The notes below the pieces were generated by a model. It was given only the letters and a program-made list of their open reading frames with translations. It had not been told where the DNA came from and did no database searches. Made by a program: the position numbers and the translations under genes. From Zeus faber (lineage: Eukaryota > Chordata > Actinopteri > Zeiformes > Zeidae), in contig OY482855.1 in assembly GCA_960531495.1 (NCBI GenBank), positions 372,001 to 436,000 on the forward strand: DNA of 64,000 nt, in the 5' to 3' direction. Of this stretch, positions 9,218 through 64,000 are shown piece by piece; within the stretch, counting starts at the first letter, position 1, and each line of letters starts with the position of its first letter.

Positions 9218-9413
9218 GGCCCATACAACATGTATTTGTCGAGGTATGAGCATTTTCAGAACATTGGACGGTTTGCTGTCTAGCTGAATTAGAGAAACAC
9301 CGAACCATTGTCTCTTCAGAGGTGAATGATTCAGAATGCTGCAGTACAGCATAGAAATTGTATTAATATGATGAACTATTATGTGCTTCCTAAGTTTTTC
9401 TCTCAGATTTCTA
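9218..9413 (+). repeat. Representative Sat1 monomer B1 (B that follows A)
   Basis: A 196 bp monomer that begins GGCCCATACAACATG. Its head ends GAGGTATGAGCATTTTCA instead of GAGTTATGATCATTTTCA, followed by GAACATTGGACGG. It then has a centre not alignable by eye with A, a short inverted repeat (9,336-9,352), and a tail TGATGAACTATTATGTGC that aligns with the A tail. This form almost always follows an A monomer whose tail reads AAGCGTTG. It ends with TCTCTCAGATTTCTA, which leads into a B2 or an A monomer. Confidence 0.93.
9336..9352. other. Short hairpin-capable inverted repeat in monomer B
   Basis: ATGCTG and CAGCAT are separated by five bases (CAGTA), giving a 6 bp stem. It is present in almost every B monomer in both arms. 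No function can be assigned from the sequence. Confidence 0.55.
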
Positions 9414-9609
9414 TGCCCATCTAACATGTATTTCTGGAGTTATGATCATTTTCAGAACTTGTGACGGTTTGCTGTCTAACTGAATTAGAGAAACACCGAA
9501 CCATTGTCTCTTCAGAGGTGAATGATTCAGAATGCTGCAGTACAGCATAGAAATTTAATTAATATGATGAACTATTATGTGCTTCTTTAGTGTTTCTCAC
9601 AGATTTCTA
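9414..9609 (+). repeat. Representative Sat1 monomer B2 (B that follows B)
   Basis: A 196 bp B monomer that begins TGCCCATCTAACATG, with TTTCTGGAGTTATGATC in the head and GAACTTGTGACGG where B1 has GAACATTGGACGG. It usually ends CACAGATTTCTA before an A monomer with the TGTGGAG head. B2 is found directly after B1 throughout the mixed block, so the B-B pair was amplified as a unit. Exceptions occur, such as the B at 13,282, which follows a B but has the ATTGG centre. Confidence 0.9.
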
Positions 9610-35649: not shown

Positions 35650-37669
35650 GGCCCAAACAACATGTATATGTCGAGGTATGAGCATTTTCAGAACATTGGA
35701 CGGTTTGCTGTCTAGCTGAATTAGAGAAACACCGAACCATTGTCTCTTCAGAGGTGAATGATTCAGAATGCTGCAGTACAGCATTGAAATTGTATTAATA
35801 TGATGAACTATTATGTGCTTCCTAAGTTTTTCTCTCAGATTTCTATGCCCATCTAACATGTATTTCTGGAGTTATGATCATTTTCAGAACTTGTGACGGT
35901 TTGCTGTCTAGCTGAATTTGAGAAACACCGAACCATTGTCTCTTCAGAGGTGAATGATTCAGAATGCTGCAGTACAGCATAGAAATTTAATTAATATGAT
36001 GAACTATTATGTGCTTCTTAAGTGTTTCTCACAGATTTCTAGGCCCATCTAACATGTATTTGTGGAGTTATGATCATTTTCATCTTAGTGTGCACATGTG
36101 GGAAAAAACGCATTTTCAGCCGATTTAAACGTCGAAAAGGGGAATTGGTTAAACGCTTCAGTCATTACTCTGTGTGACAGTGTCAGACAGTTTAAATACA
36201 ATGGTGAACTAGTATATGCTGCTAAAGTGTTGTTTGTCAACCAGTTTTAGGCCCATCTAACATGTATTTGTCGAGTTATGATCATTTTCATCATTATGTG
36301 TACATGTGGGAAAAAACGCATTTTCAGCCGATTTAAACGTCGAAAAGGGGAATTGCTTAAACGCTTCAGTCATTACTCTGTGTGACAGTGTCAGACAGTT
36401 TAAATACAATGGTGAACTAGTATATGCTGCTAAAGCGTTGTTTGTCAAACAGTTTTAGGCCCATACAACATGTATTTGTCGAGGTATGAGCATTTTCAGA
36501 ACATTGGACGGTTTGCTGTCTAGCTGAATTAGAGAAACACCGAACTATTGTCTCTTCAGAGGTGAATGATTCAGAATGCTGCAGTACAGCATAGAAATTT
36601 TATTAATATGATGAACTATTATGTGCTTCCTAAGTTTTTCTCTCAGATTTCTATGCCCATCTAACATGTATTTCTGGAGTTATGATCATTTTCAGAACTT
36701 GTGACGGTTTGCTGTCTAACTGAATTAGAGAAACACCGAACCATTGTCTCTTCAGAGGTGAATGATTCAGAATGCTGCAGTACAGCATAGAAATTTAATT
36801 AATATGATGAACTATTATGTGCTTCTTTAGTGTTTCTCACAGATTTCTAGGCCCATCTAACATGTATTTGTGGAGTTATGATCATTTTCATCATTGTGTG
36901 CACATGTGGGAAAAAATGCATTTTCAGCCGATTTAAACGTCGAAAAGGGGAATTGGTTAAACGCTTCAGTCATTACTCTGTGTGACAGTGTCAGACAGTT
37001 TAAATACAATGGTGAACTAGTATATGCTGCTAAAGTGTTGTTTGTCAAACAGTTTTAGGCCCATGTAAAATGTATTTGTCGAGTTATGATTATTTTCATC
37101 ATTGTGTGCACATGTGGGAAAAAACGCATTTTCAGCCGATTTAAACGTCGAAAAGGGGAATTGGTTAAACGCTTCAGTCAATACTCTGTGTGACAGTGTC
37201 AGACAGTTTAAAGACAATGGTGAACTAGTAAATGCTGCTAAAGTGTTGTTTGTCAACAAGATTTAGGCCCATCTTACATGTATTTATCGAGTTATGATCA
37301 TTTTCATCATTATGTGTACATGTGGGAAAAAACGCATTTTCAGCCGATTTAAACGTCGAAAAGGGGAATTGCTTGAACGCTTCAGTCATTACTCTGTGTG
37401 ACAGTGTCAGACAGTTTAAATACAATGGTGAACTAGTATATGCTGCTGAAGCGTTGTTTGTCAAACAGTTTTAGGCCCATACAACATGTATTTGTCGAGG
37501 TATGATCATTTTCAGAACTTGTGACGGTTTGCTGTCTAACTGAATTAGAGAAACACCGAACCATTGTCTCTTCAGAGGTGAATGATTCAGAATGCTGCAG
37601 TACAGCATAGAAATGTAATTAATATGATGAACTATTATGTGCTTCTTAAGTGTTTCTCACAGATTTCTA
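35650..37669 (+). repeat. BBAABBAAAB block, right copy
   Basis: Partner of 31,800-33,813. After the tenth monomer the two copies diverge: here the next A has CATTCTCATCATTGTG, and in the left copy CATTTTCATCTTAGTG. The 3.45 kb tandem duplication starts within this block. Confidence 0.75.
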
Positions 37670-40600
37670 GGCCCATCTAACATGTATTTGTGGAGTTATG
37701 ATCATTCTCATCATTGTGTGCACATGTGGGAAAAAACGCATTTTCAGCCGATTTAAACGTCGAAAAGGGGAATTGGTTAAACGCTTCAGTCATTACTCTG
37801 TGTGACAGTGTCAGACAGTTTAAATACAATGGTGAACTAGTATATGCTGCTAAAGTGTTGTTTGTCAAACAGTTTTAGGCCCATGTAAAATGTATTTGTC
37901 GAGTTATGATTATTTTCATCATTGTGTGCACATGTGGGAAAAAACGCATTTTCAGCCGATTTAAACGTCGAAAAGGGGAATTGGTTAAACGCTTCAGTCA
38001 ATACTCTGTGTGACAGTGTCAGACAGTTTAAATACAATGGTGAACTAGTATATGCTGCTAAAGCGTTGTTTGTCAAACAGTTTTAGGCCCATACAACATG
38101 TATTTGTCGAGGTATGAGCATTTTCAGAACATTGGACGGTTTGCTGTCTAGCTGAATTAGAGAAACACCGAACCATTGTCTCTTCAGAGGTGAATGATTC
38201 AGAATGCTGCAGTACAGCATTGAAATTTAATTAATGTGATGAACTATTATGTGCTTCCTAAGTTTTTCTCTCAGATTTCTATGCCCATCTAACATGTATT
38301 TCTGGAGTTATGATCATTTTCAGAACTTGTGACGGTTTGCTGTCTAACTGAATTAGAGAAACACCGAACCATTGTCTCTTCAGAGGTGAATGATTCAGAA
38401 TGCTGCAGTACAGCATAGAAATTTAATTACTATGATGAACTATTATGTGCTTCTTAAGTGTTTCTCACAGATTTCTAGGCCCATCTAACATGTATTTGTG
38501 GAGTTATGATCATTTTCATCATTGTGTGCACATGTGGGAAAAAACGCATTTTCAGCCGATTTAAACGTCGAAAAGGGGAATTGGTTAAACGCTTCAGTCA
38601 TTACTCTGTGTGACAGTGTCAGACAGTTTAAATACATTGGTGAACTAGTATATGCTGCTAAAGTGTTGTTTGTCAACCAGTTTTAGGCCCATCTAACATG
38701 TATTTGTCGAGTTATGATCATTTTCATCATTATGTGTACATGTGGGAAAAAACGCATTTTCAGCCGATTTAAACGTCGAAAAGGGGAATTGCTGAAACGC
38801 TTCAGTCATTTCTCTGTGTGACAGTGTCAGACAGTTTAAATACAATGGTGAACTAGTATATGCTGCTAAAGCGTTGTTTGTCAAACAGTTTTAGGCCCAT
38901 ACAACATGTATTTGACGAGGTATGAGCATTTTCAGAACATTGGACGGTTTGCTGTCTAGCTGAATTAGAGAAACACCGAACCATTGTCTCTTCAGAGGTG
39001 AATGATTCAGAATGCTGCAGTACAGCATAGAAATTTTATTAATATGATGAACTATTATGTGCTTCTTAAGTGTTTCCCACAGATTTCTAGGCCCATCTAA
39101 CATGTATTTGTGGAGTTATGATCATTTTCATCATTGTGTGCACATGTGGGAAAAAACGCATTTTCAGCCGATTTAAACGTCGAAAAGGGGAATTGGTTAA
39201 ACGCTTCAGTCATTACTCTGTGTGACAGTGTCAGACAGTTTAAATACAATGGTGAACTAGTATATGCTGCTAAAGTGTTGTTTGTCAAACAGTTTTAGGC
39301 CCATGTAAAATGAATTTGTCGAGTTATGATCATTTTCATAATGTGTGCACATGTGGGAAAAAACGCATTTTCAGCCGATTTAAACGTCGAAAAGGGGAAT
39401 TGCTGAAACGCTTCAGTCATTTCTCTGTGTGACAGTGTCAGACAGTTTAAATACAATGGTGAACTAGTATATGCTGCTAAAGCGTTGTTTGTCAAACAGT
39501 TTTAGGCCCATACAACATGTATTTGACGAGGTATGAGCATTTTCAGACATTGGACGGTTTGCTGTCTAGCTGAATTAGAGAAACACCGAACCATTGTCTC
39601 TTCAGAGGTGAATGATTCAGAATGCTGCAGTACAGCATAGAAATTTTATTAATATGATGAACTATTATGTGCTTCTTAAGTGTTTCCCACAGATTTCTAG
39701 GCCCATCTAACATGTATTTGTCGAGTTATGATCATTTTCATCATTGTGTGCACATGTGGGAAAAAATGCATTTTCAGCCGATTTAAACGTCGAAAAGGGG
39801 AATTGGTTAAACGCTTCAGTCATAACTCTGTGTGACAGTGTCAGACAGTTTAAATACAATGGTGAACTAGTATATGCTGCTAAAGCGTTGTTTGTCAAAC
39901 AGTTTTAGGCCCAAACAACATGTATTTGTCGAGGTATGAGCATTTTCAGAACATTGGACGGTTTGCTGTCTAGCTGAATTAGAGAAACACCGAACCATTG
40001 TCTCTTCAGAGGTGAATGATTCAGAATGCTGCAGTAAAGCATTGAAATTGTATTAATATGATGAACTATTATGTGCTTCCTAAGTTTTTCTCTCAGATTT
40101 CTATGCCCATCTAACATGTATTTCTGGGGTTATGATCATTTTCAGAACTTGTGACGGTTTGCTGTCTAGCTGAATTTGAGAAACACCGAACCATTGTCTC
40201 TTCAGAGGTGAATGATTCAGAATGCTGCAGTACAGCATAGAAATTTAATTAATATGATGAACTATTATGTGCTTCTTTAGTGTTTCTCACAGATTTCTAG
40301 GCCCATCTAACATGTATTTGTGGAGTTATGATCATTTTCATCATTGTGTGCACATGTGGGAAAAAATGCATTTTCAGCCGATTTAAACGTCGAAAAGGGG
40401 AATTGGTTAAACGCTTCAGTCATTACTCTGTGTGACAGTGTCAGACAGTTTAAATACAATGGTGAACTAGTATATGCTGCTAAAGTGTTGTTTGTCAAAC
40501 AGTTTTAGGCCCATGTAAAATGTATTTGTCGAGTTATGATTATTTTCATCATTGTGTGCACATGTGGGAAAAAACGCATTTTCAGCCGATTTAAACGTCG

Positions 40601-43600
40601 AAAAGGGGAATTGGTTAAACGCTTCAGTCAATACTCTGTGTGACAGTGTCAGACAGTTTAAAGACAATGGTGAACTAGTAAATGCTGCTAAAGTGTTGTT
40701 TGTCAACAAGATTTAGGCCCATCTTACATGTATTTATCGAGTTATGATCATTTTCATCATTATGTGTACATGTGGGAAAAAACGCATTTTCAGCCGATTT
40801 AAACGTCGAAAAGGGGAATTGCTTGAACGCTTCAGTCATTACTCTGTGTGACAGTGTCAGACAGTTTAAATACAATGGTGAACTAGTATATGCTGCTGAA
40901 GCGTTGTTTGTCAAACAGTTTTAGGCCCATACAACATGTATTTGTCGAGGTATGATCATTTTCAGAACTTGTGACGGTTTGCTGTCTAACTGAATTAGAG
41001 AAACACCGAACCATTGTCTCTTCAGAGGTGAATGATTCAGAATGCTGCAGTACAGCATAGAAATGTAATTAATATGATGAACTATTATGTGCTTCTTAAG
41101 TGTTTCTCACAGATTTCTAGGCCCATCTAACATGTATTTGTGGAGTTATGATCATTCTCATCATTGTGTGCACATGTGGGAAAAAACGCATTTTCAGCCG
41201 ATTTAAACGTCGAAAAGGGGAATTGGTTAAACGCTTCAGTCATTACTCTGTGTGACAGTGTCAGACAGTTTAAATACAATGGTGAACTAGTATATGCTGC
41301 TAAAGTGTTGTTTGTCAAACAGTTTTAGGCCCATGTAAAATGTATTTGTCGAGTTATGATTATTTTCATCATTGTGTGCACATGTGGGAAAAAACGCATT
41401 TTCAGCCGATTTAAACGTCGAAAAGGGGAATTGGTTAAACGCTTCAGTCAATACTCTGTGTGACAGTGTCAGACAGTTTAAATACAATGGTGAACTAGTA
41501 TATGCTGCTAAAGCGTTGTTTGTCAAACAGTTTTAGGCCCATACAACATGTATTTGTCGAGGTATGAGCATTTTCAGAACATTGGACGGTTTGCTGTCTA
41601 GCTGAATTAGAGAAACACCGAACCATTGTCTCTTCAGAGGTGAATGATTCAGAATGCTGCAGTACAGCATTGAAATTTAATTAATGTGATGAACTATTAT
41701 GTGCTTCCTAAGTTTTTCTCTCAGATTTCTATGCCCATCTAACATGTATTTCTGGAGTTATGATCATTTTCAGAACTTGTGACGGTTTGCTGTCTAACTG
41801 AATTAGAGAAACACCGAACCATTGTCTCTTCAGAGGTGAATGATTCAGAATGCTGCAGTACAGCATAGAAATTTAATTACTATGATGAACTATTATGTGC
41901 TTCTTAAGTGTTTCTCACAGATTTCTAGGCCCATCTAACATGTATTTGTGGAGTTATGATCATTTTCATCATTGTGTGCACATGTGGGAAAAAACGCATT
42001 TTCAGCCGATTTAAACGTCGAAAAGGGGAATTGGTTAAACGCTTCAGTCATTACTCTGTGTGACAGTGTCAGACAGTTTAAATACATTGGTGAACTAGTA
42101 TATGCTGCTAAAGTGTTGTTTGTCAACCAGTTTTAGGCCCATCTAACATGTATTTGTCGAGTTATGATCATTTTCATCATTATGTGTACATGTGGGAAAA
42201 AACGCATTTTCAGCCGATTTAAACGTCGAAAAGGGGAATTGCTGAAACGCTTCAGTCATTTCTCTGTGTGACAGTGTCAGACAGTTTAAATACAATGGTG
42301 AACTAGTATATGCTGCTAAAGCGTTGTTTGTCAAACAGTTTTAGGCCCATACAACATGTATTTGACGAGGTATGAGCATTTTCAGAACATTGGACGGTTT
42401 GCTGTCTAGCTGAATTAGAGAAACACCGAACCATTGTCTCTTCAGAGGTGAATGATTCAGAATGCTGCAGTACAGCATAGAAATTTTATTAATATGATGA
42501 ACTATTATGTGCTTCTTAAGTGTTTCCCACAGATTTCTAGGCCCATCTAACATGTATTTGTGGAGTTATGATCATTTTCATCATTGTGTGCACATGTGGG
42601 AAAAAACGCATTTTCAGCCGATTTAAACGTCGAAAAGGGGAATTGGTTAAACGCTTCAGTCATTACTCTGTGTGACAGTGTCAGACAGTTTAAATACAAT
42701 GGTGAACTAGTATATGCTGCTAAAGTGTTGTTTGTCAAACAGTTTTAGGCCCATGTAAAATGAATTTGTCGAGTTATGATCATTTTCATAATGTGTGCAC
42801 ATGTGGGAAAAAACGCATTTTCAGCCGATTTAAACGTCGAAAAGGGGAATTGCTGAAACGCTTCAGTCATTTCTCTGTGTGACAGTGTCAGACAGTTTAA
42901 ATACAATGGTGAACTAGTATATGCTGCTAAAGCGTTGTTTGTCAAACAGTTTTAGGCCCATACAACATGTATTTGACGAGGTATGAGCATTTTCAGACAT
43001 TGGACGGTTTGCTGTCTAGCTGAATTAGAGAAACACCGAACCATTGTCTCTTCAGAGGTGAATGATTCAGAATGCTGCAGTACAGCATAGAAATTTTATT
43101 AATATGATGAACTATTATGTGCTTCTTAAGTGTTTCCCACAGATTTCTAGGCCCATCTAACATGTATTTGTCGAGTTATGATCATTTTCATCATTGTGTG
43201 CACATGTGGGAAAAAATGCATTTTCAGCCGATTTAAACGTCGAAAAGGGGAATTGGTTAAACGCTTCAGTCATAACTCTGTGTGACAGTGTCAGACAGTT
43301 TAAATACAATGGTGAACTAGTATATGCTGCTAAAGCGTTGTTTGTCAAACAGTTTTAGGCCCAAACAACATGTATTTGTCGAGGTATGAGCATTTTCAGA
43401 ACATTGGACGGTTTGCTGTCTAGCTGAATTAGAGAAACACCGAACCATTGTCTCTTCAGAGGTGAATGATTCAGAATGCTGCAGTAAAGCATTGAAATTG
43501 TATTAATATGATGAACTATTATGTGCTTCCTAAGTTTTTCTCTCAGATTTCTATGCCCATCTAACATGTATTTCTGGGGTTATGATCATTTTCAGAACTT

Positions 43601-43627
43601 GTGACGGTTTGCTGTCTAGCTGAATTT
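36728..43627 (+). repeat. 3,450 bp tandem duplication, two copies
   Basis: Copies are about 36,728-40,177 and 40,178-43,627. All variants that I compared are shared at an exact 3,450 bp offset, including GAATTAATGTGATG, CATAATGTGTGCAC in the A at 39,298, GCAGTAAAGCATTG and TTTCTGGGGTTATG. The left limit is set by GAATTAGAG versus GAATTTGAG. The shared pattern continues to about 43,725, as expected when breakpoints lie in repeated sequence. The copies look essentially identical by eye. Confidence 0.9.
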
Positions 43628-45181
43628 GAGAAACACCGAACCATTGTCTCTTCAGAGGTGAATGATTCAGAATGCTGCAGTACAGCATAGAAATTTAATT
43701 AATATGATGAACTATTATGTGCTTCTTAAGTGTTTCTCACAGATTTCTAGGCCCATCTAACATGTATTTGTGGAGTTATGATCATTTTCATCATAGTGTG
43801 CACATGTGGGAAAAAACGCATTTTCAGCCGATTTAAACGTCGAAAAGGGGAATTGGTTAAACGCTTCAGTCATTACTCTGTGTGACAGTGTCAGACAGTT
43901 TAAATACAATGGTGAACTAGTATATGCTGCTAAAGTGTTGTTTGTCAACCAGTTTTAGGCCCATGTAAAATGTATTTGTCGAGTTATGATCATTTTCATC
44001 ATTGTGTGCACATGTGGGAAAAAACGCATTTTCAGCCGATTTAAACGTCGAAAAGGGGAATTGGTTAAACGCTTCAGTCATTACTCTGTGTGACAGTGTC
44101 AGACAGTTTAAATACATTGGTGAACTAGTATATGCTGCTAAAGTGTTGTTTGTCAACCAGTTTTAGGCCCATCTAACATGTATTTGTCGAGTTATGATCA
44201 TTTTCATCATTATGTGTACATGTGGGAAAAAACGCATTTTCAGCCGATTTAAACGTCGAAAAGGGGAATTGCTTAAACGCTTCAGTCATTTCTCTGTGTG
44301 ACAGTGTCAGACAGTTTAAATACAATGGTGAACTAGTATATGCTGCTAAAGCGTTGTTTGTCAAACAGTTTTAGGCCCATACAACATGTATTTGACGAGG
44401 TATGAGCATTTTCAGAACATTGGACGGTTTGCTGTCTAGCTGATTTAGAAAAACACCGAACCATTGTCTCTTCAGAGGTGAATGATTCAGAATGCTGCAG
44501 TACAGCATAGAAATTTTATTAATATGATGAACTATTATGTGCTTCTTAAGTGTTTCTCACGGATTTCTAGGCCCATCTAACATGTATTTGTGGAGTTATG
44601 ATCATTTTCATCATTGTGTGCACATGTGGGAAAAAACGCATTTTCAGCCGATTTAAACGTCGAAAAGGGGAATTGGTTAAACGCTTCAGTCATTACTCTG
44701 TGTGACAGTGTCAGACAGTTTAAATACAATGGTGAACTAGTATATGCTGCTAAAGTGTTGTTTGTCAAACAGTTTTCGGCCCATCTAACATGTATTTGTC
44801 GAGTTATGATCATTTTCATCATTATGTGCACATGTGGGAAAAAACGCATTTTCAGCCGATTTAAACGTCGAAAAGGAGAATTGGTTAAACGCTTCAGTCA
44901 TTACTCAGTGTGACAGTGTCAGACAGTTTAAATACAATGGTGAACTAGTATATGCTGCTAAAGCGTTGTTTGTCAAACAGTTTTAGGCCCATACAACATG
45001 TATTTGTCGAGGTATGAGCATTTTCAGAACATTGGACGGTTTGCTGTCTAGCTGAATTAGAGAAACACCGAACCATTGTCTCTTCAGAGGTGAATGATTC
45101 AGAATGCTGCAGTACAGCATTGAAATTTAATTAATATGATGAACTATTATGTGCTTCCTAAGTGTTTCTCTCAGATTTCTA

Positions 45182-49229: not shown

Positions 49230-49851
49230 GGCCCATCTAACATGTATTTGTCGAGATATGATCATTTTCATCATTATGTGCACATGTGGGAAAAAACGCA
49301 TTTTCAGCCGATTTAAACGTCGAAAAGGGGAATTGCTTAAACGCTTCAGTCATTACTCTGTGTGACAGTGGTTCGGAATGCTGCAGTACAGCATAGAAAT
49401 TTTATTAATATGATGAACTATTATGTGCTTCCTAAGTTTTTCTCTCAGATTTCTATGCCCATCTAACATGTATTTCTGGAGTTATGATTAATTTCAGAAC
49501 TTGTGACGGTTTGCTGTCTAGCTGAATTAGAGAAACACCGAACCATTGTCTCTTCAGAGGTGAATGATTCAGAATGCTGCAGTACAGCATTGAAATTTAA
49601 TTAATATGATGAACTATTATGTGCTTCCTAAGTTTTTCTCTCAGATTTCTATGCCCATCTAACATGTATTTCTGGAGTTATGATCATTTTCAGAACTTGT
49701 GACGGTTTGCTGTCTAGCTTAATTAGAGAAACACCGAACCATTGTCTCTTCAGAGGTGAATGATTGAGAATGCTGCAGTACAGCATAGAAATTTAATTAA
49801 TATGATGAACTATTATGTGCTTCCTATGTTTTTCTCTCAGATTTCTATGCC
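49230..49851 (+). repeat. Rearranged distal edge of the forward Sat1 array
   Basis: The A monomer starting at 49,230 is broken at about 49,370, where GTGTGACAGTG joins directly to GTTCGGAATGCTGCAG from the middle of a B monomer. The partial B is followed by two more B monomers (about 49,460 and 49,656), the only run of B longer than two in the forward array. The last B has GTCTAGCTTAATTAG and GATTGAGAATG, variants unlike the bulk of the array. Confidence 0.8.
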
Positions 49852-50080
49852 CATCTCACATATATTTGTGGAATTAGGATCATTTTCATCATTGTGTGCA
49901 CATGTGGGAAAAAACGCATTTTCAGCCGATTTAAACGTCGAAAAGGGGAATTGGTTAAACGCTTCAGTCATTACTCTGTGTGACAGTGTCAGACAGTTTA
50001 AATACAATGGTGAACTAGTATATGCTGCTAAAGTGTTGTTTGTCAAACAGTTTTAGTCCCATACAACATGTATTTGTCGA

Positions 50081-53000
50081 GTCGAAAAACTTCAAAATAT
50101 ACAACGCCGAAAAATATCACAAATACTTCAAAATTTACAACCCAGATAAATATCCCAAAAACGACTTACGGAAAATGTCGAAAAACGTCAAAATACACAA
50201 CGCCAAAAAATGTCCCAAAAACGTCAAAATATACAACCCAGGTAATATCCCAAAAACGATATAAAACTATGTCGAAAAACGTCAAAATATACAACGCCAA
50301 AAAATATCCCAAAAACTACATAATACTATGTCGAAAAACATCAAAATATACCACGTCGAAAAATATCACAATAACGTAAAAATATACAACCCAGATAAAT
50401 ATCCCAAAAAACGACATAATATACGATGTCGAAAAAAGTCAACATATACAACACCAAAAAATGTCCCAAAAACGTCAAAATATACAACCCAGAAAAAAAT
50501 CCCAAAAACGATATATTACTATGTCGCAAAACGTCAAAATATACAACGCCAAAAAATATCCCAGAAACTACATTATACTATGTCGAAAAAAGTCAAAATA
50601 TACAACGCCAAATATGTCCCAAAAACGTCAAAATATACAACCCAGAGAAATATCCCAAAAACGACATAATACTATGTCAAAAAACGTCCAAATATACAAC
50701 ACGAAAAAATTTCCCAAAAACGACATAATACTATGTTGAAAAACGTCAAAATATACCACGTCGAAAAATATCACAATAACGTAAAAATATACAACCCAGA
50801 TAAATATTCCAAAAACGACATACTTGTTACGTCGAAAAAAGTCAAAATATACAATGCCAAAATATGTCCAAAGACGTCAAAATATACAACCCAGATAAAT
50901 ATCCCAAGAACGACATACTTGTTACGTCGAAAAAAGGCAAAATATACAACACCAAAAAATATCCCAAAAACTACATAATACTATGTCGAAAAACGTCAAA
51001 ATATACAACGCCAAAATATGTCCCAAAAACGTCAAAATATACAACCCAGATAAATATCCCAAAAACAATATATTACTATGTCGAAAAACGTCAAAAAATA
51101 CAACGCCAAAAAATATCCCAAAAACTACATAATACTATGTCGAAGAACGTCAAAATATACAACACCAAAAAATATCCCAAAAACTACATAATACTCTGTC
51201 GAAAAACGTCAAAATATACAACGCCGAAAAATATCACAAATACTTCAAAATTTACAACCCAGATAAATATTCCAAAAATGACATGATACTATGCCGAAAA
51301 ACGTCAAAATATACAACGCCGAAAAATATCCCAAAAACGACATACTATACTATGTCAAAAAAAGTCAAAATATACAACACCAAAAAATATCCCAAAAACT
51401 ACATAATACTATGTCGAAAAACATCAAAATATACCACGTCGAAAAATATCACAATAACGTAAAAATATACAACCCAGATAAATATCCCAAAAAACGACAT
51501 AATATACTATGTCGAAAAAAGTCAAAATATACAGCGCCAAAAAATGTCCCAAAAACGTCAAAATATACAACCCAGATAAAAATCCCAAAAACGATATATT
51601 ACTATGTCGAAAAACGTCAAAATATACAGCGCCAAAAATTATCCCAAAAACTACATAATACTATGTCGAAAAACGTCAAAATATACCACGTCGAAAAATA
51701 TCACAAAAACTTCAAAATATACAACCCAGATTAATATTCCAAAAATGACTTACTAAACTTTGTCGAAAAAAGCCAAAATATACAACGCCAAAATAAGTCC
51801 CAAAAACGTCAAACTTTACAACCCAGATAAATATCCCAAAAATGACATAATACTATGCCGAAAAACGTCAAAATATACAACGCCAAAAAATATCCCAAAA
51901 ACAACATAATACTATATCGAAAAACGTCAAAATATACAACCCAGATAAATATCCCAAAAACTACATAATACTATGTCAAAAAACGTCAAAATATACAACG
52001 CTGAAAAATATCACAAATACTTCAAAATATACAACTCAGATAAATAATCCAAAAACGACATCCAAAAAAAGTCGAAAAAAGTCGAAATATACAAGAACAA
52101 AAAATATCCCAAAAACGACCAGTATGTCATATGTATCCCAAAGTACGACACTATGTCAAAAAACTTCTATATATACAACGCCAAAAAATATCCCAAAAAT
52201 GACATAATACCATGTCGAAAAACATCAAAATATAAAATGCCGAAAAATATCCCAAAAACTACATATTATACTATGTCGAAAAAAGTCAAAATATACAACG
52301 CCAAAATATGTCCCAAAAACGTCAAACTTTACAACCCAGATAAATATCCCAAAAATGACATAATACTATGCCGAAAAAGGTCAAAATATACAACGCCGAA
52401 AAATATCCCAAAAACGACATACTATATTTGTCAAAAAAAGTCAAAATATACAGCGCCAAAAAATGTCCCAAAAACGTCAAAATATACAACCCAGATAAAA
52501 ATCCCAAAAACGATTTATTATCATGTCGAAAAACGTCAAAATATACAACGCCAAAAAATATCCCAAAAACTGCATAATACTATGTCGAAAAACGTCAAAA
52601 TATACCACGTCACAAAAAATATCACAATAACGTAAAAATATACAACCCAGATAAATATTCCAAAAATGACATACTAAACTATGTCGAAAAAAGCCAAAAT
52701 ATACAGCGCCAAAATATGTCCAAAAACGTCAAAATATACAACCCAGATAAATATCCCAAAAAAGGACATAATATACTATGTCGAAAAAAGTCAACATACA
52801 CAACACCAAAAAATATCCCAAAAACTACATAATACTATGTCAAAAAACGTAAAAAAATATACCATGCCGAAAAATATCACAAATACTTCAAAATTTACAA
52901 CCCAGATAAATATCCTAAAAACGACATACGGAAAAAGTAGAAAAAAGTCAAAACATACAACGCCAAAAAATATCCCAAAATCGACATAATACTATATCGA

Positions 53001-53850
53001 AAAACGTCAAAATATACAACCCAGATAAATATCCCAAAAACTACATAATACTATGTCAAAAAACGTAAAAATATACAACGCTGAAAAATATCACAAATAC
53101 TTCAAAATATACAACTCAGATAAAAAAGCCAAAAACGACATCCAAAAAAAGTCGAAAAAAAGTCAAAATATACAAGGCCAAAAAATATCCCAAAAACGAC
53201 CTATTACACTATGTCGAAAAACGTCTATATATACAACGCCAAAAAATATCCCAAAAATGACATAATACCATGTCGAAAAACGTCAAAATATAAAACGCCG
53301 AAAAATATCCCAAAAACTACATATTATACTATGTCGAAAAAAGTCAAAATATACAACTCCAAAAAATATCCCAAAAACTAGAGAATACTATGTCGAAAAA
53401 TGTCAAAATATACAACGCCGAAAAATGTCACAAATACTTCAAAGTATACAACCCAGATAAATATTCCAAAAACGACATACTTGTTACGTCGAAAAAAGTC
53501 AAAATATACAACGCCAAAATATGTCCAAAGACGTCAAAATATACAACCCAGATAAAAATCCCAAGAACGACATACTTGTTACGTCGAAAAAAGTCAAAAT
53601 ATACAACACCAAAAAATATCCCAAAAACTACATAATACTATGTCGAAAAACGTCAAAATGTACAACGCCAAAATATGTCCCTAAAACGTCAAAATATACA
53701 ACCCTGAGAAATATCCCAAAAACAATTTATTACTATGTCGAAAAACGTCAAAAAATACAAAGCCAGAAAATATCCCAAAAACTACATAATACTAGGTCGA
53801 AGAACGTGAAAATATACAACACCAAAAAACATCCCAAAAACTACATAATT
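50081..53850 (+). repeat. Sat2 A-rich satellite (~59 bp), block 1
   Basis: A strongly A-rich, T-poor strand built from units such as ACTATGTCGAAAAACGTC, AAAATATACAACGCC, AAAAAATATCCCAAAAAC, TACATAAT, with a period of about 59 bp (for example 50,266 to 50,325). A second flavour carries ATACAACCCAGATAAATATC. Longer repetition is visible at about 1,080-1,083 bp: 50,325 matches 51,408, and 51,961 matches 53,041. Overlapping K/N/Y-rich ORFs appear in several frames and change frame between units, so I treat them as non-coding. I do not recognise the family. Confidence 0.93.
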
Positions 53851-53854
53851 CCTA

Positions 53855-53938
53855 TCTGTCACTGTCACACAGAGTAATGACTGTAGCTTTTAACCAATTC
53901 ACCTTTTCGACGTTTAAATCGGCTGAAAATGCATTTTT
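53855..53938 (-). repeat. Inverted Sat1 A fragment inside the duplication
   Basis: About 84 bp of the reverse complement of monomer A, from TCTGTCACTGTCACACAG to GAAAATGCATTTTT. It is followed immediately by forward B sequence, so an inverted junction sits at about 53,938. It reads TTCACCTTTTC where the forward array reads TTCCCCTTTTC and the longer inverted arm TTCGCCTTTTC or ATCGCCTTTTC. Confidence 0.9.
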
Positions 53939-54313
53939 TTTGCTGTCTAGCTTAATTAGAGAAACACCGAACCATTGTCTCTTCAGAGGTGAATGATTGA
54001 GAATGCTGCAGTACAGCATAGAAATTTAATTAATATGATGAACTATTATGTGCTTCCTATGTTTTTCTCTCAGATTTCTATGCCCATCTCACATATATTT
54101 GTGGAATTAGGATCATTTTCATCATTGTGTGCACATGTGGGAAAAAACGCATTTTCAGCCGATTTAAACGTCGAAAAGGGGAATTGGTTAAACGCTTCAG
54201 TCATTACTCTGTGTGACAGTGTCAGACAGTTTAAATACAATGGTGAACTAGTATATGCTGCTAAAGTGTTGTTTGTCAAACAGTTTTAGTCCCATACAAC
54301 ATGTATTTGTCGA
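53939..54313 (+). repeat. Forward Sat1 fragment between the two Sat2 blocks
   Basis: Partial B monomer followed by one full A monomer, ending at GTATTTGTCGA, which overlaps the first bases of Sat2. It is the duplicate of 49,706-50,080. The final head reads GTCCCATACAACATG, with GT in place of GG. Confidence 0.92.
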
Positions 54314-57300
54314 GTCGAAAAACTTCAAAATATACAACGCCGAAAAATATCACAAATACTTCAAAATTTACAACCCAGATAAATATCCCAAAAACGACTT
54401 ACGGAAAATGTCGAAAAACGTCAAAATACACAACGCCAAAAAATGTCCCAAAAACGTCAAAATATACAACCCAGGTAATATCCCAAAAACGATATAAAAC
54501 TATGTCGAAAAACGTCAAAATATACAACGCCAAAAAATATCCCAAAAACTACATAATACTATGTCGAAAAACATCAAAATATACCACGTCGAAAAATATC
54601 ACAATAACGTAAAAATATACAACCCAGATAAATATCCCAAAAAACGACATAATATACGATGTCGAAAAAAGTCAACATATACAACACCAAAAAATGTCCC
54701 AAAAACGTCAAAATATACAACCCAGAAAAAAATCCCAAAAACGATATATTACTATGTCGCAAAACGTCAAAATATACAACGCCAAAAAATATCCCAGAAA
54801 CTACATTATACTATGTCGAAAAAAGTCAAAATATACAACGCCAAATATGTCCCAAAAACGTCAAAATATACAACCCAGAGAAATATCCCAAAAACGACAT
54901 AATACTATGTCAAAAAACGTCCAAATATACAACACGAAAAAATTTCCCAAAAACGACATAATACTATGTTGAAAAACGTCAAAATATACCACGTCGAAAA
55001 ATATCACAATAACGTAAAAATATACAACCCAGATAAATATTCCAAAAACGACATACTTGTTACGTCGAAAAAAGTCAAAATATACAATGCCAAAATATGT
55101 CCAAAGACGTCAAAATATACAACCCAGATAAATATCCCAAGAACGACATACTTGTTACGTCGAAAAAAGGCAAAATATACAACACCAAAAAATATCCCAA
55201 AAACTACATAATACTATGTCGAAAAACGTCAAAATATACAACGCCAAAATATGTCCCAAAAACGTCAAAATATACAACCCAGATAAATATCCCAAAAACA
55301 ATATATTACTATGTCGAAAAACGTCAAAAAATACAACGCCAAAAAATATCCCAAAAACTACATAATACTATGTCGAAGAACGTCAAAATATACAACACCA
55401 AAAAATATCCCAAAAACTACATAATACTCTGTCGAAAAACGTCAAAATATACAACGCCGAAAAATATCACAAATACTTCAAAATTTACAACCCAGATAAA
55501 TATTCCAAAAATGACATGATACTATGCCGAAAAACGTCAAAATATACAACGCCGAAAAATATCCCAAAAACGACATACTATACTATGTCAAAAAAAGTCA
55601 AAATATACAACACCAAAAAATATCCCAAAAACTACATAATACTATGTCGAAAAACATCAAAATATACCACGTCGAAAAATATCACAATAACGTAAAAATA
55701 TACAACCCAGATAAATATCCCAAAAAACGACATAATATACTATGTCGAAAAAAGTCAAAATATACAGCGCCAAAAAATGTCCCAAAAACGTCAAAATATA
55801 CAACCCAGATAAAAATCCCAAAAACGATATATTACTATGTCGAAAAACGTCAAAATATACAGCGCCAAAAATTATCCCAAAAACTACATAATACTATGTC
55901 GAAAAACGTCAAAATATACCACGTCGAAAAATATCACAAAAACTTCAAAATATACAACCCAGATTAATATTCCAAAAATGACTTACTAAACTTTGTCGAA
56001 AAAAGCCAAAATATACAACGCCAAAATAAGTCCCAAAAACGTCAAACTTTACAACCCAGATAAATATCCCAAAAATGACATAATACTATGCCGAAAAACG
56101 TCAAAATATACAACGCCAAAAAATATCCCAAAAACAACATAATACTATATCGAAAAACGTCAAAATATACAACCCAGATAAATATCCCAAAAACTACATA
56201 ATACTATGTCAAAAAACGTCAAAATATACAACGCTGAAAAATATCACAAATACTTCAAAATATACAACTCAGATAAATAATCCAAAAACGACATCCAAAA
56301 AAAGTCGAAAAAAGTCGAAATATACAAGAACAAAAAATATCCCAAAAACGACCAGTATGTCATATGTATCCCAAAGTACGACACTATGTCAAAAAACTTC
56401 TATATATACAACGCCAAAAAATATCCCAAAAATGACATAATACCATGTCGAAAAACATCAAAATATAAAATGCCGAAAAATATCCCAAAAACTACATATT
56501 ATACTATGTCGAAAAAAGTCAAAATATACAACGCCAAAATATGTCCCAAAAACGTCAAACTTTACAACCCAGATAAATATCCCAAAAATGACATAATACT
56601 ATGCCGAAAAAGGTCAAAATATACAACGCCGAAAAATATCCCAAAAACGACATACTATATTTGTCAAAAAAAGTCAAAATATACAGCGCCAAAAAATGTC
56701 CCAAAAACGTCAAAATATACAACCCAGATAAAAATCCCAAAAACGATTTATTATCATGTCGAAAAACGTCAAAATATACAACGCCAAAAAATATCCCAAA
56801 AACTGCATAATACTATGTCGAAAAACGTCAAAATATACCACGTCACAAAAAATATCACAATAACGTAAAAATATACAACCCAGATAAATATTCCAAAAAT
56901 GACATACTAAACTATGTCGAAAAAAGCCAAAATATACAGCGCCAAAATATGTCCAAAAACGTCAAAATATACAACCCAGATAAATATCCCAAAAAAGGAC
57001 ATAATATACTATGTCGAAAAAAGTCAACATACACAACACCAAAAAATATCCCAAAAACTACATAATACTATGTCAAAAAACGTAAAAAAATATACCATGC
57101 CGAAAAATATCACAAATACTTCAAAATTTACAACCCAGATAAATATCCTAAAAACGACATACGGAAAAAGTAGAAAAAAGTCAAAACATACAACGCCAAA
57201 AAATATCCCAAAATCGACATAATACTATATCGAAAAACGTCAAAATATACAACCCAGATAAATATCCCAAAAACTACATAATACTATGTCAAAAAACGTA

Positions 57301-58083
57301 AAAATATACAACGCTGAAAAATATCACAAATACTTCAAAATATACAACTCAGATAAAAAAGCCAAAAACGACATCCAAAAAAAGTCGAAAAAAAGTCAAA
57401 ATATACAAGGCCAAAAAATATCCCAAAAACGACCTATTACACTATGTCGAAAAACGTCTATATATACAACGCCAAAAAATATCCCAAAAATGACATAATA
57501 CCATGTCGAAAAACGTCAAAATATAAAACGCCGAAAAATATCCCAAAAACTACATATTATACTATGTCGAAAAAAGTCAAAATATACAACTCCAAAAAAT
57601 ATCCCAAAAACTAGAGAATACTATGTCGAAAAATGTCAAAATATACAACGCCGAAAAATGTCACAAATACTTCAAAGTATACAACCCAGATAAATATTCC
57701 AAAAACGACATACTTGTTACGTCGAAAAAAGTCAAAATATACAACGCCAAAATATGTCCAAAGACGTCAAAATATACAACCCAGATAAAAATCCCAAGAA
57801 CGACATACTTGTTACGTCGAAAAAAGTCAAAATATACAACACCAAAAAATATCCCAAAAACTACATAATACTATGTCGAAAAACGTCAAAATGTACAACG
57901 CCAAAATATGTCCCTAAAACGTCAAAATATACAACCCTGAGAAATATCCCAAAAACAATTTATTACTATGTCGAAAAACGTCAAAAAATACAAAGCCAGA
58001 AAATATCCCAAAAACTACATAATACTAGGTCGAAGAACGTGAAAATATACAACACCAAAAAACATCCCAAAAACTACATAATT
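54314..58083 (+). repeat. Sat2 A-rich satellite (~59 bp), block 2
   Basis: Apparently identical to block 1 at an offset of 4,233 bp, as part of the composite duplication. It is flanked on the left by forward Sat1 (GTATTTGTCGA shared with the start of Sat2) and on the right by inverted Sat1 (CCTATCTGTCACTGTCACAC). Confidence 0.93.
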
Positions 58084-59012
58084 CCTATCTGTCACTGTCA
58101 CACAGAGTAATGACTGTAGCTTTTAACCAATTCACCTTTTCGACGTTTAAATCGGCTGAAAATGCATTTTTTCCCACATGTGCACACTATGATGAAAATG
58201 ATCATAACTCCACAAATACATGTTAGATGGGCCTAGAAGTCTGTGAGAAACACTTAAGAAGCACATAATGGTTAATCATATTAATTAAATTTCTATGCTG
58301 TACTGCAGCATTCTGAATCATTCACCTCTGAAGAGACAATGGTTCGGTGTTTCTCTAATTCAGCTAGACAGCAAACCGTCAAAAGTTCTGAAAATGATCA
58401 TAACTCCACAAATACATGTTAGATGGGCATAGAAATCTGTGAGAAACATTTAAGAAGCACATAATAGTTCATCATATTAATTTAATTTCTATGCTGTACT
58501 GCAGCATTCTGAATCATTCACCTCTGAAGAGACAATGGGTCGGTGTTTCTCTAATTCAGTTAGACAGCAAACCGTCCAAAGTTCTGAAAATTATCATAAC
58601 TCGAAAAATTCATGTTAGATGGGCTTAAAACTCTGTGAGAAACACTTATGGACCACATAATAGTTCATCATATTAATCAAATTTCTATGCTGTACTGCAG
58701 CATTCTGAACCATTCACCTTTGATGAGACAATGGTTCAGTGTTTCTCTAATTCAGCTAGACAGCAAACCGTCCAAAGTTCTGACGTGATCAAAACTCCTC
58801 AAATACATGTTAGATGGGCCTAGAGGTCTGTGAGAAACACTTAAGAAGCACATAATAGTTCCTCATATTAGATTTCAATGGTGTACGGCAGCATTCTGAA
58901 TCATTCACCTATAAAGAGACAAAGGTTCGGTGTTTCTCTAATTCAGCTAGACCGCAAATCGTCCAAAGTTCTGAAAATGATCATAACTCGAAAAATACAT
59001 TTTATATGGGCC

Positions 59013-59636
59013 TAAAACTGTTTGACCAACAACACTTTAGCAGCATATACTAGTTCATCATTGTATTTAAACTGTCTGTCACTGTCACACAGAGTAATGA
59101 CTGTAGCTTATAACCAAATCGCCTTTTCGACGTTTAAATCGGCTGAAAATGCGTTTTTTCCCACATGTGCACACTATGATGAAAATGATCATAACTCGAC
59201 AAATACATTTTATTTGGGCCTAAAACTGTTTGACAAACAACACTTTAGCAGCATATACTAGTTCACTATTGTATTTAAACTGTCTGGCACTGTCACACAG
59301 AGTAATGACTGAAGTGTTTAACCAATTCGCCTTTTCGACGTTTAAATCGGCTGAAAATGCGTATTTTCCCACATGTGCACACTATGATCAAAATGATCAA
59401 ACCTCGACAAATACATTTTAAATGGGCCTAAAACTGTTTGACATACAACACTTTAGCAGCACATACTAGTTATTCATTGTATTTAAACTGTCTGACACTG
59501 TCACACAGAGTAATGACTGAAGCTTTAAACCAAATCGCCTTTTCGACGTTTAAATCGGCTGAAAACGCATTTTTTCCCACATGTGCACACTATGATGAAA
59601 ATGATCATAACTCAACAAATACATATTAGATGGGCC
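59013..59636 (-). repeat. Three consecutive A monomers in the inverted arm
   Basis: Units 59,013-59,220, 59,221-59,428 and 59,429-59,636, each exactly 208 bp. All keep the ~63-codon open frame (here on the + strand) despite substitutions, and all keep the CGCCTTTTCG diagnostic variant. The first two have heads equivalent to the forward GTAAAATG type, without the stop codon, so their frames reach 79 codons or join the next unit. Confidence 0.88.
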
Positions 59637-60028
59637 TAGAACTCTGTGAGAAACACTTAAGAAGGACATAATAGTTCATCATATTAATTACATTTCTATG
59701 CTGTACTGCAGCATTCTGAATCATTCACCGCTGAAGAGACAATGGTTCGGTGTTTCTCTAATTCAGCTAGACAGCAAACCGTCAAAAGTTCTGAAAATGA
59801 TCATAACTCCACAAATACATGTTAGATGGGCATAGTAATCCGTGAGAAACACTTAAGAAGCACATAATAGTTCATCATTTTAATTAAATTTCTATGCTGT
59901 ACTGCAGCATTCTGAATCATTCACTTATGAAGAGACAATGGTTCGGTGTTTCTCTAACACAGCTAGACAGCAAACCGTTCAATGTTCTGAAAATGCTCAT
60001 AACTCGACAAATACATGTTGTATGGGAC

Positions 60029-60227
60029 TAAAACTGTTTGACAAGCAACACTTTAGCAGCACAGACTAGTTCATCATATTAATTAAATTTCTATGCTGTA
60101 CTGCAGCATTCTGAATCATTCACCGCTGAAGAGACAATGGTTCGGTGTTTCTCTAATTCAGCTAGACAGCAAACCATCAAAAGTTCTGAAAATGATCTTA
60201 ACTCCACAAATACATGTTATATGGGAC
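60029..60227 (-). repeat. A/B chimeric monomer (199 bp)
   Basis: Read on the + strand, it starts as an A tail (TAAAACTGTTTGACAAGC, TTTAGCAGCACAGACTAG) and changes to B sequence at TTCATCATATTAATTAAATT. It then continues as B to the head. The switch falls in the TGAACTA region where A and B tails are homologous, so unequal crossing-over or conversion between the two monomer types is the simplest explanation. Confidence 0.85.
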
Positions 60228-60435
60228 TAAAACTGTTTGACAAACAACACTTTAGCAGCACAGACTAGTTAGTCATAGTATTCAAACTGTCTCACACTGT
60301 CACACAGAGTAATGACTGAAGCGTTTAACCTATTCGCCTTTTCGACGTTTAAATCGGTTGAAAATTTGTTTTTTCCCACATGTGCACACTATGATGAAAA
60401 TGATCATAACTCGACAAATACATGTTGTATGGGAC

Positions 60436-60569
60436 TAAAACTGTTTGACAAGCAACACTTTAGCAGCACATACTTGTTCATCATAGTATTTAAACTGTCT
60501 GACACTGTCACACAGAGTAATGACTGTCTGAAAATGATCATAACTCGAAAAATACATGTTAGATGGGCC
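60436..60569 (-). repeat. Internally deleted A monomer (134 bp)
   Basis: Starts as a normal inverted A, but after GAGTAATGACTG jumps to TCTGAAAATGATCATAAC, which is the B-type approach to the head. About 74 bp of the A centre is missing. A truncated B follows (60,570-60,681), so monomer order decays towards the array edge. Confidence 0.85.
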
Positions 60570-62114
60570 TAAAACTCTGTGAGAAACACTTATGGAGCAC
60601 ATAATAGTTCATCATATTAATCATCATATTATGTACTGCAGCATTCTGAACCATTCACCTTTGATGAGACAATGGTTCGGTATTGAAAGAAAGATTGAAT
60701 GATTGAAAGAAATGTAGATTGAAATAAAGAATGAAAGAAAGATTTGAAGTAAGAATGAAATATTGAAAGAAAGATTTAAGGAAAGGTTGAAAGACTGAAA
60801 GAAAGAATGAAAGATTGAAAGAAAGATTGAAAGATTTAAAGAAATATTGAAAGAAAGAGAATTTGAAAATAAGAAAGATTGAAAGAAAGATTGAAATAAA
60901 TAAAGATTGAAAGAAAGAATAAAAGAAAAATTGAAAGATTGAAAGATTGAAAGATTGAAAGAAAGATTGAAAGAAAGATTTAACGAAAATTGAAAGACTG
61001 AAAGTAAGAATGAAAGAAAGATTGAAAGTTTGAAAGAAAGAATGAAAGAATTAAAGAAAGATTGAAAGAAATATTGAAAGAAAGAATGAAAGATTGAAAG
61101 AAAGAATGAAAGAATGAAAGAAATACTGAAAGAAAGAAAGATTGAAAGTAAGAACGATTGAAAGAAAGATTTATAGAAAGATTGAAAGACTGAAAGAAAG
61201 AATGAAAGATTGAAAGAAATATTGAAAGAAAGAGAGATTGAAAGATTAAAAGATTGAAAGAAAGATTGAAAGTAATAAAGATTGAAAGAAAGAATGGAGG
61301 AATAATTGAAAGATTGAAAGAAAAAATGAAAGAATTAAAGAAAGATTGTAAGAAATATTGAAAGAAAGATTGAAAGAAAGAATGAAAGAAAGATTGTAAG
61401 AAAGAATGAAAGTAAGAAAGAAATATTGAAAGATTGAAAGAAATATTGAAAGAAAGAAAGATTGAAAGTAAGAACGATTGAAAGAAAGATTGAAAGAAAG
61501 ACTGAAAGCTTGAAAGAAAGAATGAAAGAAAGATTTAAAGAAAGGTTGAAAGACTGAAAGAAAGAATGAAAGATTGAAAGAAAGAATGAAAGAACGATTG
61601 AAAGAAAAAATGAAAGAATGATAGAAAGATTGAAAGATTGAAAGATTGAAAGAAAGATTGAATGTTTGAAAGAAAGATTGAAAGTATTAAAGATCGAAAG
61701 AAATATTTAAAGAAAGATTGAAAGATTAAAAGAAAGAATGAAATAACGATTGAAAGAAAGAATGAAAGAATGAAAGAATTATTGAAAGATTGAAAGAAAT
61801 ATTGAAAGAAAGAGAGATTGAAAGATTAAAAGATTGAAAGAAAGATTGAAAGTTATGAAGATTGAAAGAAAGAATGAAGGAAAAACTGAAAGATTGAAAG
61901 ACTGAAAGGATGAATGAAAGAAAGATTGAAAGATTGAAAGAAAAAATGAAAAACTTAAAGAAAGATTGAAAGAAATATTGAAAGACAGATTGAAAGATTG
62001 AAAGAAAGAAAGATTGAAAGAAAGAATGAAAGAAAGATTGTAAGAAAGAATGAAATATTGAAAGAAAAAATGAAAGAAAGACTGAAAAAAACAAAGAAAG
62101 ATTGAAAGAAATAA

Positions 62115-62328
62115 AGATTTAAAGAAAAAAAGATTTAAAGAAAGATTGAAAGACTAAAAGTAAGAATGAAAAAAAAGATTGAAAGAAAGATTGAAAAAAG
62201 AAAGAAAGATTGAAAGAAAGATTGAAAGAAAGATTGAAAGAAAGAATGAAAGTTTGAAAGAAAGATTGAAAGAAAGATTGAAAGAAAGATTGAAAGACTG
62301 AAAGAAAAAATGAAAGAAAGATTAAAAG
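62115..62328 (+). repeat. Long-range repeat inside the minisatellite, copy 1
   Basis: An ordered string of variants (AGATTTAAAG, then GACTAAAAGTAAGAATG, then GAAAAAAGAAAG, then GAATGAAAGTTTG) that recurs at 63,799-64,000. The offset is 1,684 bp at the left end and 1,672 bp at the right, a difference of one 12 bp subunit. Confidence 0.75.
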
Positions 62329-63798
62329 AGAGATTGAAAGATTGAAAGATTGAAAGAAGGAATGAAAGAAAGATTGAATGATTGAAAGATTGAAATAAAG
62401 AATGAAAGATTGAAAGAAAGAATAAAAGAACGATTGAAAGAAAGAATGAAAGAATGAAAGAAAGATTGAAAGATTGAAAGAATATTGAAAGAAAGAGAGA
62501 ATGAAAGTAAGAAAGATTGAAAGAAAGATTGAAAGTAAAAAAGATTGAAAGAAAGAATGAAAGAAAAATTGAAAGATTGAAAGATTGAAAGAAAGATTTA
62601 AAGAAAGATTTAAAGAAAGATTGAAAGACTGGAAGAAAGAATGAATAAAAGAATAAAAGAAAGATTGAACGATTGAAATATTGAAATAAAGAATGAAAGT
62701 TTGAAAGAAAGATTGAAAGAAAGTTTTAAAGAAAGAAAGATTGAAAGAAAGTTTTAAAGAAAGAAAGATTGAAAGTAAAAAAGATTGAAAGAAATATTGA
62801 AAGAAAGATTGAAAGATTGAAAAAAAGAATAAAAGAAAGATTGAAAGAATGAAAGAAAGATTGAAATAAATAATGAAAGAAAGATTGAAAGAAGGAATGA
62901 AAGACTAAAAGTAAGAATGAAAAAAAAGAATGAAAGCAAGATTGAAAGATTGAAAGATTGAAAGAAAGAATGAAAGATTGAAAGAAAGAATGAAAGAATG
63001 AAAGATAGATTGAAAGACTGAAAGAAATATTGAAAGAAGGAGAGAATGAAAGTAAGAAAGATTGAATGAAAAATTGAAAGATTGAAAGATTGAAAGAAAG
63101 AATGAAAGAAAGATTGAAAGATTGAAAGAAATACTGAAAGAAAGAAAGAAGATTGAAAGTGAGAACGATTGAAAGAAAGCTTGAAACGAAAGATTGAAAG
63201 AAAGAATGAAAGAAAGATTGAAAGATTGAACGATTGAAAGAAAGAATGAAAGATTGAAAGAAAGAATAAAAGAACGATTGAAAGAAAGAATGAAAGAATG
63301 AAAGAAAGATTGAAAGTAAAAATTGAAAGATTGAAAGATTGAAAGAAAGATTTAAAGAAAGATTTAAAGAAAGATTGAAAGACTGAAAGAAAGAATGAAT
63401 AAAAGAATTAAAGAAAGATTGAAAGATCGAAAGATTGAAAGATTGAAAGAAAGATTGAAAAAAGAATGATTAAAAGAAAGAAAGATTTAAAGAATGAAAG
63501 ATTTAAAGAAAGATTGAAAGACTAAAAGTAAGAATGAAAAAAAAGAATGAAAGAAAGATTGAAAGATTGAAAGATTGAAAGAAAGAATGAAAGATTGAAA
63601 GAAAGAATGAAAGAACGATTGAAAGAAAGAATGAAAGAAAGATTGAAAGATTGAAAGAAATATTGAAAGAAAGAGAGAATGAAAGTAAGAAAGATGGAAA
63701 GAAAAATTGAAAGATTGAAAGATTGAAAGAAAGAATTAAAGAAAGATTGAATGATTGAAAGATTGAAAGAAAAATTGAAAGAAAGATTGAAGAAAGAA

Positions 63799-64000
63799 AG
63801 ATTTAAAGAAAAAAAGATTTAAAGAAAGATTGAAAGACTAAAAGTAAGAATGAAAAAAAAGATTGAAAGAAAGATTGAAAAAAGAAAGAAAGATTGAAAG
63901 AAAGATTGAAAGAAAGAATGAAAGTTTGAAAGAAAGATTGAAAGAAAGATTGAAAGAAAGATTGAAAGACTGAAAGAAAAAATGAAAGAAAGATTAAAAG
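63799..64000 (+). repeat. Long-range repeat inside the minisatellite, copy 2 (cut by window end)
   Basis: Partner of 62,115-62,328. The marker GACTAAAAGTAAGAATG occurs at 62,152, 62,903, 63,520 and 63,836, so the minisatellite contains several overlapping higher-order periods (about 617, 751 and 1,684 bp) and is not a random mix of tetranucleotides. Confidence 0.75.

Follow-up and report, generated by a model that had tools for sequence, protein, structure and literature searches.

Strand switches in a satellite array of Zeus faber: a probable diverged, inverted edge segment with a tandemly duplicated junction

Introduction

Switches of strand within satellite DNA are a known kind of event. 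For alpha satellite, a "segment cut off scenario" has been described in which an inversion, mobile elements or another amplified tandem repeat exclude pieces of an array from homogenisation (PMC2729386). Inversions in primate alpha-satellite arrays, one of them of 3.2 Mb, have been checked with ultra-long reads (PMC11062924), and for the human satellites HSat2,3, 1,738 reads matching both strands were set aside as possible inversion breakpoints (PMC4022460). The major and minor satellites of Tribolium are reported to form macro-dyads with opposed subarrays, an adjoining second satellite and abrupt junctions at truncated monomers, all of which are also found at the locus described here (PMC13081366). 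We analyzed a stretch of 64,000 nucleotides from Zeus faber (assembly GCA_960531495.1, contig OY482855.1, positions 372,001 to 436,000 of the forward strand), hereafter called the window, in which a satellite made of A and B monomers (Sat1) occurs on the plus strand, Sat1(+), and on the minus strand, Sat1(-), with a second satellite (Sat2) lying between the two. The best reading takes this locus for the edge, now in decay, of a satellite array of eukaryotic type. The locus probably combines a diverged and inverted segment of the array edge with a later, non-homologous tandem duplication of the junction, and nothing in it points to a new mechanism.

Results

The list of Sat1 monomers comprises 263 non-overlapping matches kept at E<=1e-8 and contains the same monomer family on both strands within one contiguous stretch. 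The 14 minus-strand matches of the long Sat1(-) block have bit scores of 78.0 to 172.3, and a short inverted sliver at 53,852–53,939 scores 60.4. In 100 dinucleotide shuffles of 58,085–60,681 (the sliver was left out of the shuffling), a single match was found at E<10, with 3.8 bits. The polarity switch of Sat1 exceeds chance and is present in the assembled sequence. The order along the locus is Sat1(+), Sat2, 88 bp of Sat1(-), approximately 376 bp of Sat1(+), Sat2 and 2.6 kb of Sat1(-). A preliminary description of this DNA had proposed the order Sat1(+), Sat2, Sat1(-), which we confirm with Sat1/Sat2 boundaries near 50,081 and 58,085, and had placed inverted Sat1 at 53,855–53,938 and 58,088–60,681, positions that are refined here to 53,852–53,939 and 58,085–60,684. 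It had also assumed a single switch starting at 49,370. The strand actually changes three times, because Sat1 runs forward again after the sliver, from 53,939 to about 54,314, and 49,370 is merely the point at which Tandem Repeats Finder stopped, at a monomer of 224 bp, while Sat1(+) monomers extend to about 50,081. The features of the window are as follows.

1–50,081 (plus strand): Sat1(+) array of A (208 bp) and B (about 196 bp) monomers in changing order, continuing past the left end of the window.
49,272–49,495 (plus strand): odd monomer of 224 bp, an A/B hybrid by eye; the Tandem Repeats Finder array end falls inside it and Sat1(+) goes on.
49,706–53,939 (plus strand): duplication copy 1, consisting of the last 376 bp of Sat1(+), Sat2 and then the first approximately 88 bp of Sat1(-).
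50,081–53,854 (plus strand): Sat2 block, copy 1, with diverged, interleaved sub-repeats.
53,852–53,939 (minus strand): Sat1(-) sliver, an inverted, truncated A monomer that is the terminal part of copy 1.
53,939 (no strand): duplication junction from Sat1(-) to Sat1(+), within a run of eight T.
53,939–58,172 (plus strand): duplication copy 2, 100% identical to copy 1.
53,939–54,314 (plus strand): second forward Sat1 piece, a B monomer without its first 13 positions followed by an A monomer cut near position 195.
54,314–58,087 (plus strand): Sat2 block, copy 2.
58,085–60,684 (minus strand): Sat1(-) block of 14 monomers or parts of monomers, 8 of them B, in the order abbbbaaabbbaab.
60,682–64,000 (plus strand): degenerate ATTGAAAG/AAAG-type simple repeat, continuing past the right end of the window.

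The Sat1(-) block differs from the forward array both in divergence and in monomer order. In Sat1(+) (1–50,081), the largest spacing between adjacent monomer matches is 10 bp and the median nearest-neighbour identity is 1.000, for A and B alike; this comparison used monomers of at least 170 bp, which excluded 4 of the 263, namely three in the minus block and the sliver at 53,852. For the minus block, the comparison covers the 11 of 14 matches that are long enough to align (four A and seven B), and their best match in Sat1(+) has an identity of 0.927–0.966 (A) or 0.911–0.974 (B). Together, the 11 monomers carry 154 substitutions from the consensus, 82 of which occur in no Sat1(+) reference monomer (indels were left uncounted), and 17 of these 82 minus-only substitutions are common to another minus monomer. 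Mean terminal branches in the monomer trees were 0.048 (A) and 0.056 (B) for the minus strand, compared to 0.007 (A) and 0.006 (B) for the plus strand. For the trees, four monomers (that of 224 bp, the initial partial one and the duplicated pair) were set aside together with identical rows, which reduced the A set from 164 to 117 and the B set from 95 to 62. Among the 246 plus monomers before the first switch, B monomers form 29 single and 29 double runs and none longer, while the 14 monomers of the minus block contain B-runs of four, three and one. Because of these private changes and the differing A/B order, set against the uniform Sat1(+), the Sat1(-) block reads, on its sequence, as an old piece of array that has ceased to share in the turnover of Sat1(+). 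As in the cut-off segments of alpha satellite, its monomers are more diverged than those of the main array, from which it is separated by an inversion or by another tandem repeat.

We rejected the idea that the present array recently folded back or formed a palindrome: B-runs of three and four are found solely in the minus arm, and none of the 11 aligned minus monomers has a match above 0.974 in Sat1(+). The two arms are also unequal, the left one spanning 50 kb or more, without a B-run longer than two, and the right one 2.6 kb, ending within the window at 60,684. At this end (60,396–60,684) the terminal Sat1(-) monomers are broken, with an A part that lacks its first 76 positions followed by a partial B that abuts the simple repeat. 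On the other side of the locus, the 224-bp monomer at 49,272–49,495, which lies near the duplicated edge, has an identity of 0.758 to the A consensus.

The region between the two arms contains one tandem duplication of 4,233 bp. Positions 49,706–53,939 and 53,939–58,172 are identical across 4,234 bases and form the longest exact direct repeat of the window, and in the 300 bases flanking the pair on each side the identity at the 4,233-bp offset is only 0.247 and 0.26. The outer edges of the pair lie inside monomers that run across them (B at 49,694–49,884 and A(-) at 58,085–58,191), whereas the inner junction at 53,939 passes through two monomers, cutting the A(-) one at position 21 and the B(+) one at position 14. 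Because the outer monomers are uncut and the inner junction severs both an A and a B monomer, we infer that an older Sat1(+)/Sat2/Sat1(-) junction, at first present singly, was duplicated in tandem in one event. The idea that the switch is centered on a second satellite is inaccurate in this form: a distinct satellite does lie within the switch, but the center consists of two exact Sat1(+)/Sat2/Sat1(-) copies placed head to tail. What had been taken for one 8-kb Sat2 interrupted by Sat1(-) is in fact a 3.77-kb block plus its exact copy, and the inverted piece noted at 53,855–53,938 is the cut end of copy 1. This sliver agrees at 82 of its 88 bases with the reverse-complemented sequence of its A(+) counterpart, 202 bp away at 54,142–54,229.

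The overlap at the inner junction is about 1 bp and lies in the T run, where slippage allows up to 3 bp. Neither the homology at the breakpoints nor the preserved monomer phase of an in-register unequal crossover was found for the 4,233-bp duplication, and such a crossover does not explain the junction at 53,939 because the overlap is only about 1 bp and two monomers are severed. The join was probably made by replication template switching or by end joining. With zero differences in 4,233 bases, the divergence has a 95% upper bound of about 7e-4 per site, and the duplication would be young, if real.

A different kind of duplication is found inside the uniform Sat1(+) array. At 36,728–43,727 there is an exact match of 3,550 bases at a spacing of 3,450 bp; the 3,450-bp unit comprises 17 monomers, every one longer than 180 bp, and the ungapped identity of the flanks is 0.847 and 0.975. 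This is the outcome of an in-register unequal crossover, unlike the junction at 53,939. A near-exact Sat1 duplication was also observed at 9,237–19,715, with a spacing of 5,275–5,277 bp and exact stretches of 1,443, 1,908 and 1,600 bases. B monomers are scarce in the first 10 kb of the array (8 of 49 monomers) and make up approximately a third to half of the monomers per 5-kb bin from 10 kb on.

The second 4.2-kb copy may instead be an assembly artefact, produced by a false tandem duplication or a chimeric read, the true locus then being Sat1(+), one Sat2 and Sat1(-). We regard this as possible although rather doubtful. The complete identity of the copies would fit an artefact, and so would the position of the junction, because the run of eight T that holds it is one of only two homopolymers of at least 8 bases in the first 60,681 bases of the window. 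However, overlap-based assembly requires shared sequence for a join, and merely about 1 bp is shared at 53,939. The exact 3,550-base match in Sat1 is, if itself real, another young exact duplication, which also argues against an artefact. In a study of earlier assemblies, 7 to 24% of the documented false duplications lay within one and the same scaffold, and gaps between copies are listed as one of their signs (PMC9516828); there is no gap between the present copies. If the second copy proved false, the locus would instead offer satellite assembly a test case of false tandem duplication.

Sat2 is A+T-rich, with 29.6% G+C, and has interleaved periods near 36, 59, 95 and 154 bp. We rejected the idea that it is a diverged Sat1, since a comparison with one A and one B monomer, using words of 7 bases, gave no match at E<=1. 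Among the minus-strand matches longer than 60 bp at E<=1e-8, none paired Sat2 with itself in inverted orientation. Within the block, 50,297–50,424 and 51,380–51,507 form an exact 128-base repeat with a spacing of 1,083 bp; approximately 300 bp around it are 94–99% identical, and the remaining Sat2 is 25–50% identical at this spacing. The boundaries with Sat1 are both sharp, one lying at about position 195 of the A monomer and the other at about 108. Such boundaries are consistent with a scenario in which a head-to-head Sat1 junction existed first and later received Sat2 as a whole, for instance in the form of a mobile element's internal repeat, and tandem repeats within retrotransposons have been described as a source of satellites (PMC7004042). 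On the other hand, no terminal inverted repeat or target-site duplication was seen by eye at the edges of Sat2 on the printed junctions (no program was run), and the open reading frames (ORFs) of at least 100 amino acids in Sat2 reach 160 amino acids (bacterial code). We consider this insertion unlikely; it would change only the order of events at the first step of the history proposed below. Sat2 may have arrived with the inversion or afterwards, and the locus may be either an inversion boundary or an insertion into an inverted junction, the two options that had initially been put forward.

The window consists almost wholly of repeats and contains no N in its 64,000 nucleotides. No tRNA was found in it, and no Rfam family at the gathering threshold, and an origin of Sat2 from a tRNA or another known RNA was rejected. 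One exact Sat1 pattern and one Sat2 pattern were sought in viral contigs, and the former also in genome contigs, with 0 matches, which carries little weight because the collections are viral, bacterial, archaeal and plasmid. The same applies to 53,800–54,600, for which blastn gave no match against phages and plasmids, a collection outside the eukaryotes. Six short stretches of the window, searched as text in the open-licence literature, returned no paper, and we make no claim from this that the junction is absent from print.

Discussion

The divergence of the minus block and the anatomy of the duplication suggest a history of three steps. Long ago, an inversion and the placement of Sat2 would have parted a 2.6-kb segment of Sat1, now on the minus strand, from the main array. 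This segment would then have dropped out of the unequal exchange that keeps Sat1(+) uniform; the pattern of divergence is directly observed, and exclusion from exchange would be its cause. In doing so, the segment would have retained another, B-richer order of monomers and accumulated private changes and truncations. More recently, a 4,233-bp piece holding Sat1(+)/Sat2/Sat1(-) would have been duplicated head to tail via a non-homologous join with an overlap of about 1 bp, which would account for both the inverted sliver and the forward Sat1 piece that follows it.

Several results weigh against this history. The ranges of the terminal branches overlap, with minima of 0.0267 (A) and 0.0179 (B) among the minus monomers and maxima of 0.049 (A) and 0.0369 (B) among the plus monomers, the last value belonging to the Sat1(+) B monomer at 49,694 that adjoins the Sat2 edge. 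The four aligned A(-) monomers cluster in the tree as written, and the seven B(-) monomers do not. Moreover, the minus block shows no special likeness to the Sat2-proximal part of Sat1(+): in the kinship test, which used plus monomers below 49,260 only and took 45–49.3 kb as the proximal part, of 156 circular shifts for A, 119 attained the observed difference, as did 23 of 84 for B. An inversion of the Sat2-proximal end of Sat1(+) is not supported by this test. Because there is no excess likeness to 45–49.3 kb, a local inversion of the neighboring array end is not demonstrated, and the minus block might originate elsewhere than from that end. Finally, the duplication of the third step is seen in the assembled sequence alone and could be an assembly error.

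An extrachromosomal circle, returned to its locus of origin by homologous recombination, might also have produced the 4.2-kb duplication in place of template switching. Judging from the anatomy, a circle would likewise leave two exact copies head to tail with an almost blunt join between them, and the window offers no means of telling this route from template switching; we nevertheless consider it improbable. It would be a long shot to see in Sat1(+)/Sat2/Sat1(-) a young, spreading "inverted cassette", that is, a dyad junction amplified by non-homologous duplication and caught at its first doubling, although this, if true, would offer a second, simple route to satellite/minor-satellite cassettes of the Tribolium kind (PMC13081366). 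It is hardly credible that the inverted arms form a dyad that is maintained for a role in centromeric or pericentromeric chromatin: the opposed Sat1 arms about a second satellite resemble the Tribolium macro-dyads (PMC13081366), and a single strand of 53,840–54,240 has a predicted fold of -100.7 kcal/mol, lower than any of 100 shuffles (mean -35.8 kcal/mol), but the arms are unequal, the short one is diverged, and we regard the strong predicted hairpin as a consequence of the duplication junction and not as a function, so that it is silent on selection.

Read as the diverged and inverted edge of an array whose junction was later duplicated, the locus is a compact record of two modes of array change, in-register duplication in the uniform array and non-homologous duplication at its diverged, inverted edge. 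The older alpha-satellite segments that flank human centromeres are likewise parted by an inversion or another tandem repeat, are not homogenised and lie beside a uniform array (PMC2729386); their sequence differs, and the present segment measures only 2.6 kb. In Tribolium, arrays tend towards symmetry, in contrast to the arms of at least 50 kb and about 2.6 kb found here, and inversion sites recur, with 2,044 INV_1a sequences reported, whereas the present junction is one locus in one window (PMC13081366). The minor satellite of Tribolium also bears an inversion site of its own (PMC13081366), which has no counterpart among the minus-strand matches of Sat2. The inversions of primate alpha satellite (PMC11062924) and the two-strand reads of HSat2,3 (PMC4022460) share with our locus a switch of strand inside one family; the passages cited from these two reports do not mention a second satellite at the switch, where Sat2 is present here. 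The locus looks like an instructive yet ordinary case of the breakage and decay of a satellite array.

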